From contig CAMEPU010000005.1 in assembly GCA_945932315.1 (NCBI GenBank), positions 1 through 32,077 of the forward strand: 32,077 nt of DNA, given 5' to 3'. This document shows, in pieces, positions 11,590 to 32,077 of this stretch (position 1 is the first letter of the stretch; every line of letters starts with the position of its first letter). The position numbers and the translations under genes were made by a program. The notes beneath the pieces are model-generated. The model was not told the DNA's origin and searched no databases. It was given only the letters and a program-made list of their open reading frames with translations. The stretch is from an uncultured Clostridia bacterium (GTDB lineage Bacteria > Bacillota > Clostridia > Oscillospirales > Butyricicoccaceae).

Positions 11590-11770
11590 GAAAGAGCGTG
11601 CGAGTACCCGGGGAGGCCTCACGGACAAGGGGAGTTATTTTTACGAGCCATGGTTGAAACAAGATTTATCGTGAGGAGTCAGATGAATCCATAGTACCGC
11701 GTCAGTCGACGGACGTGGGAAGGGAGGAACCCTTGGAGGTGGTAGTAAATGAAGGTTACCGAAGTTGAGA
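11590..11770 (+). pseudogene. Probable group II intron / LtrA-type remnant
   Basis: GAGCGTGCGAGTACCCGGGGAGGCCTCACGG followed by ...REESDESIVPRQSTDVGREEPLEVVVNEG (frame of CGTGAGGAGTCAGATGAATCCATAGTACCG), reminiscent of the pre-RT region of bacterial group II introns; no RT domain present. Boundaries approximate. Confidence 0.4.
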
Positions 11771-29601: not shown

Positions 29602-30417
29602 TCAGAGCCGGTCGAGGAAGGAATGCCGCCCGGTATCGTCCCGCCAGCCGAGCACCTTTTTGGTGTCCACATTTTTGACCGCGTTCAGAATATTGGCCTC
29701 GATCTGCGGGTTCTGTGCGGCCAGTCCGGCGATCAGCGCCTTGATCTCGGCCCGCTTGGTGTCCTGCTCGCGCGCGGCCGCCGGGCAGGCGCAGGGCAGG
29801 AAGGTCAGTCCACAGTACGCCGCCCATTCCTTCACGGCGGCCTCGCGGGTGAAATAGAGCGGCCGGATGAGCTCCATCCCCTCGTAATTGGCGGCCGCCA
29901 GACGGGGCAGCATGGCCTGCACCTGGCCGCCGTACAGCAGCCCCATCAGCACGGTCTCGATTGCGTCGTCATAGTGGTGGCCGAGGGCGATCTTGTTGCA
30001 GCCGAGCGCCCGCGCCTGGGCGTACAGATTACCCCGGCGCAGTTTGGCGCACAGGAAGCAGGGGTGCTCGGGCGCGTGCCTGCCCGCGATGCGGAGGACG
30101 TCGGTCTCGAACACGGTCAGCGGCAGCCCGAGCCGCGCCATGTTTTCCTCGATGTGCCGGCGGTTCTCGGCCGGATAGCCCGGGTCCATCGCGAGAAACC
30201 GCACCTCGAAGCCGCCGCGCGCCGCGCAGTCGTCGAGCAGCAGGCCGAGCAGCGCCGAATCCTTGCCGCCCGAGATGCAGACCGCGATCCGGTCGCCCGG
30301 CCGCACCATCTCAAATTCCCGCAGCGCCCGGTTGAACGGGTTGCAGATCTGCCGTGCAAAGCGGGTGTGAACCGCCTGTAAAATTTCTTTACGCTCCATA
30401 TCTTTCCTCATTTTCAT
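29602..30417 (-). CDS. TtcA-family tRNA 2-thiocytidine biosynthesis-like ATPase (PP-loop)
   Basis: CISGGKDSALLGLLL PP-loop, CFLCAKLRRGNLYAQARALGCNKIALGHHYDDAIET; likely start at the internal MERKEILQ. Confidence 0.85.
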   Translation of the reverse strand: MKMRKDMERKEILQAVHTRFARQICNPFNRALREFEMVRPGDRIAVCISGGKDSALLGLLLDDCAARGGFEVRFLAMDPGYPAENRRHIEENMARLGLPLTVFETDVLRIAGRHAPEHPCFLCAKLRRGNLYAQARALGCNKIALGHHYDDAIETVLMGLLYGGQVQAMLPRLAAANYEGMELIRPLYFTREAAVKEWAAYCGLTFLPCACPAAAREQDTKRAEIKALIAGLAAQNPQIEANILNAVKNVDTKKVLGWRDDTGRHSFLDRL

Positions 30418-30512: not shown

Positions 30513-30566
30513 TTATTCATTTCGTCCTATTCGCCGCTTGCAAAACCGCATACTCTGCGGTAAGAT
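30513..30566 (+). promoter_or_regulatory. Array promoter 1 with conserved upstream box
   Basis: TTATTCATTTCGTCCTATTCGCCGC + TTGCAA - 17 bp - TAAGAT. Confidence 0.8.
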
Positions 30567-30829
30567 AAAGACAGTTCAGGGAACGAAACACAGACCGCCG
30601 ATCACGAGATTTCCAGCTCCGAAGCATGGATTCACGGACGGGGGGATGGTGTGGAAGGGGGGGCGGCAAGCCCCCGCTTCCGCGATCCAATCATCGGATT
30701 TTCAAACTTTTTGAAGTTTGAAAATCCGGACGCAGCTTGGCGAAAGAATTTTCGACAGGCTGCGTTCAGGGAACTGAACCGAGAGCAAAAACAAACCACA
30801 GATTATCCCAAGAAAGGGGACCACAAATC

Positions 30830-30931: not shown

Positions 30932-31021
30932 AACCAAACGCCCGGCCATGTGCGGCGGGAAACTTCCCCCGCCTCTCTTATCATAAATCCAATCCGTTTC
31001 ATTCGTCTACTTCTTTTTAAA

Positions 31022-31056
31022 TTGTCCACTCCTTTTTCTACTTTCTACTTTCTCTT
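31022..31056 (+). repeat. CU-rich 3'UTR tract, copy 1
   Basis: TTGTCCACTCCTTTTTCTACTTTCTACTTTCTCTT, identical to the copy at 31474. Confidence 0.9.
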
Positions 31057-31062
31057 TAAGTC

Positions 31063-31094
31063 AGGGAGCCCGGCCGGATACGGTCGGGCTCTCT
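31063..31094 (+). terminator. Terminator hairpin of unit 1
   Basis: AGGGAGCCCGGCCG-GATA-CGGTCGGGCTCTCT then GGCGTTTTCC. Confidence 0.7.
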
Positions 31095-31176
31095 GGCGTT
31101 TTCCGTCCGGCACGGACAGGTGTCGCTGAGATAAAATGCTTTTTAGTGAATTATGCATAAAAACTTTTTCTATATT

Positions 31177-31230
31177 TTATTCATTTCGTCTTATTCGCCG
31201 CTTGAAAAAAGCCTGGGGCCGGAGTAAGAT
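31177..31230 (+). promoter_or_regulatory. Array promoter 2 with conserved upstream box
   Basis: TTATTCATTTCGTCTTATTCGCCGC + TTGAAA - 17 bp - TAAGAT. Confidence 0.8.
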
Positions 31231-31303
31231 AAAGACACCGTTGAGAGAACGGGCACAGCAAACGATCAGAAGTGTATCACCCGACGAAGGAGGATTCCCT
31301 GGC

Positions 31304-31405
31304 ATGCTGTTTTATGATTTTGTGCGCGCCATCGCCGATGGAAGGGTTGACGCGAATACAATTCACCGGCTCGTTCAGGAAGCCGACCTGCGCGAAAAGC
31401 GCTGA
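31304..31405 (+). CDS. Small peptide 2 (33 aa), uncharacterised paralogue
   Basis: MLFYDFVRAIADGRVDANTIHRLVQEADLREKR; strong RBS GAAGGAGG; the longer ORF call from 31136 would start upstream of the promoter and is unlikely. Confidence 0.78.
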   Translation: MLFYDFVRAIADGRVDANTIHRLVQEADLREKR

Positions 31406-31473
31406 GCGGCAACCCGACCAAATGCGGCAGACCCCCGCCGCTTTCCATATATTCTTTCTCCACCTTATTCATT

Positions 31474-31508
31474 TTGTCCACTCCTTTTTCTACTTTCTAC
31501 TTTCTCTT
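31474..31508 (+). repeat. CU-rich 3'UTR tract, copy 2
   Basis: TTGTCCACTCCTTTTTCTACTTTCTACTTTCTCTT. Confidence 0.9.
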
Positions 31509-31513
31509 AAAGG

Positions 31514-31546
31514 CGATGAGCCCGGCCGAATCGGCCGGGCTCATCG
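31514..31546 (+). terminator. Terminator of unit 2
   Basis: CGATGAGCCCGGCCGA-ATCGGCCGGGCTCATCG then TCTTTTTG. Confidence 0.85.
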
Positions 31547-31600
31547 TCTTTTTGTCGGGTTTTTGAATTGTGCAAGTATAACAAAAATACAGTTTGATTT

Positions 31601-31654
31601 TTATTTAATTCGTCTAATCTTTCGCTTGTCAAATTTATGTAAAAAGAGTAAGAT
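31601..31654 (+). promoter_or_regulatory. Array promoter 3 with (diverged) upstream box
   Basis: TTATTTAATTCGTCTAATCTTTCGC + TTGTCA - 17 bp - TAAGAT. Confidence 0.78.
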
Positions 31655-31716
31655 AGGTACAGTTCCGAGGGGAACGAAAGAAACGATAAAACACCACTTG
31701 AAAGGGGTCTTAATAT

Positions 31717-31818
31717 ATGAAGTTCTTCGAATCTCTCCAGACGCTGGCCGATATGCAGATGCAGTGCATGATGCCCGGCTATTACACCCGCAGCATCGAA
31801 AAGCGCCATCAGCGCTAA
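31717..31818 (+). CDS. Small peptide 3 (33 aa), uncharacterised paralogue
   Basis: MKFFESLQTLADMQMQCMMPGYYTRSIEKRHQR; RBS GAAAGGGG; 102 nt like the other two. Confidence 0.77.
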   Translation: MKFFESLQTLADMQMQCMMPGYYTRSIEKRHQR

Positions 31819-31892
31819 GAAAACCCCTGTTTTCTTAACCATTCCGGACAATCACGTCCGTTTTCCTTTTCTCACAAGCTGAGAAATCTCTT

Positions 31893-31914
31893 TTGTCCAC
31901 ACTCCTTTTTCTCT
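31893..31914 (+). repeat. CU-rich 3'UTR tract, partial copy 3
   Basis: TTGTCCACACTCCTTTTTCTCT, related to copies 1 and 2. Confidence 0.75.
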
Positions 31915-31923
31915 ACGAGCAGG

Positions 31924-31951
31924 CGCGCCTGACACCGCACGGTCAGGCGCG
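31924..31951 (+). terminator. Terminator of unit 3
   Basis: CGCGCCTGAC-ACCGCAC-GGTCAGGCGCG then TCTGTTCGTTTTTT. Confidence 0.85.
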
Positions 31952-32077
31952 TCTGTTCGTTTTTTAAAAGTTAATTATGCAACGGTATGAAAACGCCCGG
32001 CGCAGATGCCCGGGGGTCATAAGAAAGTAATATCGTATTTTTGCAGGAACGGCATGGCTTCGGTCATGCCGTTTCCT

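Follow-up and report, generated by a model that had tools for sequence, protein, structure and literature searches.

Three head-to-tail units at the end of the contig

The window, by which we mean the whole analysed stretch of 32,077 nt, reaches the end of contig CAMEPU010000005.1, which has the same length, and carries three head-to-tail units at about 30.5-32.0 kb. The order of elements is the same in each unit: a conserved box precedes a promoter of the sigma70 type, and a Shine-Dalgarno sequence precedes an open reading frame (ORF) of 33 codons, after whose stop codon come a hairpin, the CU-rich tract and, last, a strong terminator. The promoters of all 3 units have a 17-nt spacing and the common -10 element TAAGAT. 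The features of the array and the divergent gene beside it are as follows.

29602..30417, - strand: divergent TtcA-like ATP-loop protein, which marks the corresponding site in relatives and has 68-73% identity to its counterparts at the Butyricicoccus loci L024-L027 and L031
30512..30537, + strand: unit 1, conserved box just upstream of the -35 element (TTTATTCATTTCGTC...), repeated at 31176 and, more weakly, at 31600
30538..30566, + strand: unit 1, promoter TTGCAA-17-TAAGAT, from sequence and position
30634..30766, + strand: 133-nt genome repeat within the unit 1 leader, outside the conserved unit; copies on contigs C84 and C100 at 89-90% identity
30830..30931, + strand: unit 1, peptide MKMFDYIKAIAEVEYESSLTRQIHRNSANRSKR, ribosome-binding site (RBS) AAAGGGG at 30813-30819; peptide-model E 1.4e-10 (the peptide itself is in the model)
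30954..30973, + strand: unit 1, post-stop hairpin GGCGGG-AAACTTCC-CCCGCC, loop not conserved
31022..31056, + strand: unit 1, CU-rich tract, 35/35 identical to unit 2 and related to a 30-nt tract invariant in five Butyricicoccus
31060..31103, + strand: unit 1, intrinsic terminator, inverted repeat and T run, with a model match
31176..31201, + strand: unit 2, conserved upstream box, with 94% identity to that of unit 1 across 34 nt
31202..31230, + strand: unit 2, promoter TTGAAA-17-TAAGAT
31304..31405, + strand: unit 2, peptide MLFYDFVRAIADGRVDANTIHRLVQEADLREKR, RBS AAGGAGG at 31287-31293; E 2.6e-9 (the peptide itself is in the model)
31424..31441, + strand: unit 2, post-stop hairpin GCGGC-AGACCCCC-GCCGC, C-rich loop
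31474..31508, + strand: unit 2, CU-rich tract, 35/35 identical to unit 1
31509..31556, + strand: unit 2, intrinsic terminator, inverted repeat
31600..31625, + strand: unit 3, degenerate upstream box with 71% identity to that of unit 1
31626..31654, + strand: unit 3, promoter TTGTCA-17-TAAGAT
31717..31818, + strand: unit 3, peptide MKFFESLQTLADMQMQCMMPGYYTRSIEKRHQR, RBS AAAGGGG at 31701-31707; E 8.1e-13 (the peptide itself is in the model)
31819..31834, + strand: unit 3, hairpin GAAAAC-CCCT-GTTTTC, directly after the stop codon
31893..31914, + strand: unit 3, CU-rich tract, shortened and altered, pyrimidine content 0.77
31915..31966, + strand: unit 3, intrinsic terminator, inverted repeat

The promoters and terminators are predicted from sequence and are conserved in relatives. 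The predicted RNA measures ~300 nt per unit, except for that of unit 1, which would reach about 530 nt because the 133-nt repeat is inserted in its leader. The repeat is MITE-like, with an internal inverted repeat (GATTTTCAAAC...GTTTGAAAATC) and weaker copies in genome G005. Compared with Rfam, the units match no family at the gathering score, and the sub-threshold matches fall far below the cut-offs and are unconvincing; elsewhere in the window, positions 11646-11725 match the group II intron D1-D4 family (RF01998, 36.7 bits).

The hairpins, tracts and terminators were all found at the positions that the original prediction had assigned to them. The prediction had also placed a hairpin immediately after every stop codon, which is the case in unit 3, whereas in units 1 and 2 the stop codon and the hairpin are 22 and 18 nt apart, and had described all the loops as C-rich, which fits units 2 and 3 but not unit 1 (AAACUUCC). 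When the first 50 nt after the stop codon were compared with shuffled sequences, the fractions of shuffles folding as well were 0.038, 0.082 and 0.000 for units 1, 2 and 3, respectively, so that only in unit 3 does the fold clearly beat the shuffles. In L025-L027, a hairpin occupies the same place but its loops are not C-rich, and no post-stop hairpin was seen on reading the sequences of L031 and L024 by eye. C-rich loops were rejected as the conserved element.

The peptide and the CU-rich tract in relatives

The TtcA-like neighbour is closest to proteins of Butyricicoccus and Agathobaculum. Divergent from this gene, L024-L027 have a unit of the same kind. Behind its conserved promoter come one or two peptides, each 33-34 residues long and in most cases of the form MKF..FL..LAQA....PG..., and then the CU-rich tract and the terminator; the next gene is alpha/beta-hydrolase-like, and several of the loci also have 5S rRNA. 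Butyricicoccus pullicaecorum DSM 23266 has a one-unit version (L026). Among the 3 peptides of the window, that of unit 3 is the closest to the Butyricicoccus peptides. The unit 1 upstream box can be aligned with those of L024-L027 and L031, and its pattern is present at the TtcA-divergent locus in 6/6 genomes of the genus, with at most one other match per genome. The window contig may end where it does for a repeat-related reason. At the same site, L031 (G001:C300, from a Butyricicoccus MAG that is ~99% complete) retains the promoter (TTTATCTATTTGGTACAAGTCAATCGTTGCA...TATCATA), the tract and the terminator; its transcript contains no homologous peptide ORF, and with the peptide models none was found at any other place in this genome.

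The tract, TTGTCCACTCCTTTTTCTACTTTCTACTTTCTCTT, is 35/35 identical between 31022-31056 and 31474-31508 and partially preserved at 31893-31914, each copy being followed by a strong terminator, in agreement with the original prediction. Equally borne out is the statement that conservation is stronger in the 3′ region than in the coding region, given that the peptides of units 1-3 are only ~20-30% identical. Conservation of both the tract and the hairpin loops had been anticipated in homologous loci; it extends to the tract, of which CTTTTCTCTACCTTCTCTTTCTCTTTTTCA is identical at 30/30 nt across the five Butyricicoccus (L024-L027 and L031), but not to the loops. In the same five genomes, pairwise identity at the four-fold sites of the TtcA gene is only 38-57%.

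The pyrimidine content of the tract is 0.90 in both unit 1 and unit 2, 0.97 in L031 and only 0.77 in unit 3. Ahead of the terminators of other genes, mean pyrimidine content is 0.49 in the own genome and 0.47 in the relative G004, and the 99th percentile of the best 30-nt window is 0.87 and 0.82, respectively. General pre-terminator composition is thus rejected as an explanation for units 1 and 2; some ordinary genes also have a CU-rich stretch before the terminator (L319, L321, L329 and L334). In L025-L027, L031 and unit 3, the tract is mostly unpaired, its predicted accessibility being higher than that of 90-98% of windows; in units 1 and 2 and in L024, it is less so, and its accessibility is ordinary. 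In the consensus fold of the tract-terminator alignment, the terminator alone is paired, with compensatory changes in 4/11 pairs. Judging from the retention of the tract without a peptide in L031 and from its 30/30 identity set against 38-57% at four-fold sites, the RNA element is selected for itself, independently of the peptide.

The peptide, where present, is by the pattern of its substitutions under purifying selection (pN/pS 0.21-0.25 at pS 0.43-0.55 between L025, L026 and L027). Members of the family, as found with the peptide model including the promoter-found loci, occur in 27/87 Butyricicoccaceae genomes. A promoter-model match lies just upstream in 23/33 peptide loci, from Butyricicoccus, Agathobaculum (g5) and a third genus; 10 of the 23 are outside the loci used to build the model, several of these 10 being orthologues of model loci. 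For the members tried, Pfam, NCBIfam and PHROGs returned no family above the cut-off, the one sub-threshold Pfam match, DUF760, being confined to unit 3 and absent from other members, and helical amphipathicity was not significant in most of the peptides.

With a model of the promoter only, we recovered a second peptide locus in G002, encoding MKKNFSNFLNRMAMFELGCDPGLSHMFHSDARRSK, and loci in two other genera encoding MNFFQKLVKAYVHAVENPPYAMSVGKGKTMPRD and MMKGYFNDLVAVRTLDLNANRVKTMSRKARRAAK, all without the CU tract; the tract was likewise missing from the g5 and g10 peptide loci inspected. The second G002 locus (L119, G002:C30) adjoins a gene for a LacI-type regulator and combines the same promoter with a plain terminator. 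The promoter match in G049 (L144), which precedes a larger, unrelated ORF, is regarded as chance. The g5 relatives of the peptide (L340, L344 and L346-L352) have a conserved purine-rich 3′UTR (AAGGAGTC...ATGACAA.GAAA.CGG.ATGTAA), which resembles a second, tiny 7-codon ORF and, in the kind of its sequence, complements the CU tracts.

With the tract present without a peptide in L031, and the peptide and promoter present without the tract in other genera, the comparison indicates that promoter-peptide and CU-tract-terminator are separable modules, fused in Butyricicoccus. In the window, the fused unit is repeated three times, with diverged peptides and a tract that is identical in two copies.

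Outside the genus, matches to the covariance model of the tract are a mixture of conserved intergenic RNA candidates and plain 3′ ends of genes, and since the model also matches the latter, its scores alone were not taken as homology. Four g10 species have a short CU-tract transcript candidate without a peptide, nearly identical over ~40 nt; in L174, L176, L177 and L184, this is a ~100-nt intergenic RNA candidate (CTTTTATCTCTCTTTTTTACCCCCCTTTAA...) with its own promoter and terminator. Three g7 species have a CU-tract RNA candidate without a peptide, identical over ~21 nt; it has a conserved upstream motif, TTCTGTTCACGA, and a sugar-phosphomutase-like gene close by on the opposite strand (L178, L182 and L183). 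The g10 and g7 candidates resemble the Butyricicoccus tract and may or may not share ancestry with it. In L148 (G025, g9), a promoter-model match is followed by a CU tract and a terminator, with no peptide and with two tRNA genes just downstream; this locus is a possible link between the two types of module.

Proposed function, target search and alternatives

On this comparative evidence, the units are probably dual-function RNAs, each a message as well as a regulatory RNA. The original prediction of a peptide-encoding sRNA gains evolutionary support, in that peptide and tract are both selected and each persists alone in relatives. The best explanation, to which we would give an even chance, is a separately transcribed RNA that combines a translated peptide with a trans-acting, base-pairing CU-rich tract. 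Each unit would be transcribed and terminated separately, yielding a peptide of ~33 residues and a mostly unpaired CU tract before the terminator; in B. pullicaecorum DSM 23266, an RNA of ~290 nt, from near TATCATATTGGACAG to the terminator, would be expected. By analogy with CU-rich sRNAs of Firmicutes, the tract would pair with purine-rich sequence around the start codons of other mRNAs and lower their translation, and the peptide would be an effector in its own right, co-induced with the RNA via the common promoter box. With the unit in tandem copies, a single RNA signal might be amplified even as the peptides diverge.

The search for targets extended over 1.2 Mb of the own genome (905 predicted genes) and 0.8 Mb of G004, with rough gene calls, namely, longest non-overlapping ORFs with starts picked by Shine-Dalgarno strength. 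In the own genome, the mean duplex energy of the tract is -11.8 kcal/mol at RBSs, compared with -8.2 kcal/mol in coding sequence. Among composition-matched shuffles, however, 50/60 in the own genome and 42/60 in G004 were at least as strong at RBSs as the real tracts. A general affinity for RBSs exists; the exact sequence of the tract is not explained by it. The notion of C/U-rich loops that bind Shine-Dalgarno sequences, on which the original prediction drew, is therefore no more than compatible with these results and with a tract that is fairly accessible in most relatives but not strikingly so in units 1 and 2.

The top-ranked of ~906 genes in the own genome is nanA (-29.5 kcal/mol, a 22-nt match over the RBS), with nanT of the same operon at rank 16; the genes belong to a nanE-nanA-nanT-like sialic-acid operon (L003 / L254, contig C51). 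We rejected nanA as a target, given that 48/150 shuffled tracts reach the same energy against some gene, that 4/5 other genomes of the genus have no nanA match and that the site in G001 lacks such complementarity. The 14/14 match to the dCMP-deaminase-like comEB was set aside as a plain Shine-Dalgarno match. Among the predicted genes of the own genome and G004, no conserved or outstanding target emerged.

This outcome bears on the main rival explanation, which we consider unlikely: the units would be ordinary peptide mRNAs, the peptide their sole product and the tract a cis-acting 3′UTR element, such as a G-poor spacer for terminator folding, a stability element or a rut-like site. The failure of the target search accords with such a role, as do the invariable position of the tract just before the terminator, the CU-rich stretches ahead of some ordinary terminators and the wider spread of the peptide family. 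The strength and sequence identity of the tract are, however, far above those of other pre-terminator regions, the peptide transcripts inspected in other genera manage without it, and L031, a single MAG, keeps it at 30/30 with no peptide to serve.

Alternatively, the tract could be a protein-binding site: Hfq, a KH-domain protein or Rho would bind its pyrimidines, and the RNA would act as their sponge or landing pad rather than through mRNA pairing. A long, exact, unstructured sequence with no recognisable target fits this possibility, and so does the occurrence in the same family of several CU-tract RNAs that are similar but not identical. Most single-strand binding proteins need fewer than thirty invariant positions, and we regard this alternative as decidedly unlikely. 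In favour of the base-pairing reading, Hfq is encoded in 5/6 genomes of the genus; it was not found in the own genome assembly, where, at 80% completeness, the absence is not informative.

It had also been suggested that each tract pairs with the RBS of its own or a sister unit, which would allow autoregulation by arrest of peptide synthesis. The minimum-energy fold of unit 2 does pair GAAGGAGGA of its RBS with the tract, but the centroid fold does not; by energy, pairings with own or sister RBSs are ordinary, at ranks 360, 368 and 551 among 905 genes and, for the relatives, at ranks 254-507 among 636, and the L031 tract persists with no peptide RBS to block, so that the suggested pairing was not upheld and autoregulation is very improbable. 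Finally, a functionless pyrimidine-rich 3′ end spread by recent duplication, as the duplication-like units 1 and 2 and the degraded tract of unit 3 might suggest, is already contradicted by the 30/30 identity in five species at near-saturated neutral sites and has a close to negligible probability.

Known dual-function and CU-rich RNAs

In Bacillus subtilis, the 205-nt SR1 transcript both pairs with target mRNA, its targets being ahrC and kinA, and encodes the 39-residue peptide SR1P, whose partner is GapA; SR1 homologues occupy an identical genomic location, and SR1P is described as confined to Bacillales (PMC8152036, PMC8501984). The units would be like SR1 in combining pairing and a peptide in one RNA, whereas no tandem array is described for SR1. 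According to the available part of its description, VcdRP of Vibrio cholerae encodes a 29-residue peptide and has, in the 3′ part of the RNA, a conserved CCCC pairing site that acts, in an Hfq-dependent manner, on the translation-initiation regions of several mRNAs (PMC8672173). It comes from another phylum and has one short C4 motif instead of the ~30-nt CU tract found here, and that part of the description includes neither tandem nor peptide-less forms, unlike what is seen for the Butyricicoccaceae units.

LhrC1-5 of Listeria is a multicopy sRNA with CU-rich sites that bind G-rich sequence near the start codon (PMC4132741). The window, with 3 units and two identical tracts, resembles it in design only, that is, in several copies and CU-rich sites; LhrC is presented as a regulatory sRNA without a peptide and with three redundant sites that contain UCCC (PMC4132741), a motif missing from the window tracts. 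RNAIII, RsaE, SprD and FsrA are Gram-positive sRNAs of the UCCC type, which direct pyrimidine motifs against Shine-Dalgarno sequences (PMC4132741). They are similar to the units in the pyrimidine motif, but no Rfam family matches the window units at the gathering score or, below it, convincingly. RNAIII also encodes a peptide. By analogy, the units are best read as like SR1/SR1P and VcdRP in logic and like LhrC in multicopy, CU-rich style, and as related to none of them by homology as far as tested, SR1P being judged by its description.

Dual-function RNAs usually come to light singly, by experiment. In the present case, evolution alone separates the two functions, one species having lost the peptide naturally and others lacking the RNA part, and in the tandem array, the RNA part is constant while the peptides vary. 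The carriers are relatives of butyrate producers from the gut, for which a literature search turned up no description of an RNA of this kind. The peptides lack Pfam, NCBIfam and PHROGs entries and the RNA lacks an Rfam entry, and both can be tested directly in a cultured strain. Tentatively, and with less confidence than an even chance would convey, we propose for Butyricicoccaceae a modular system that joins an unchanging, CU-rich regulatory RNA tail to ~33-residue peptides of a rapidly evolving family. If so, peptide-only, tail-only and fused versions would exist in different species, and one transcriptional signal would release the same RNA regulator together with different peptides from tandem copies.
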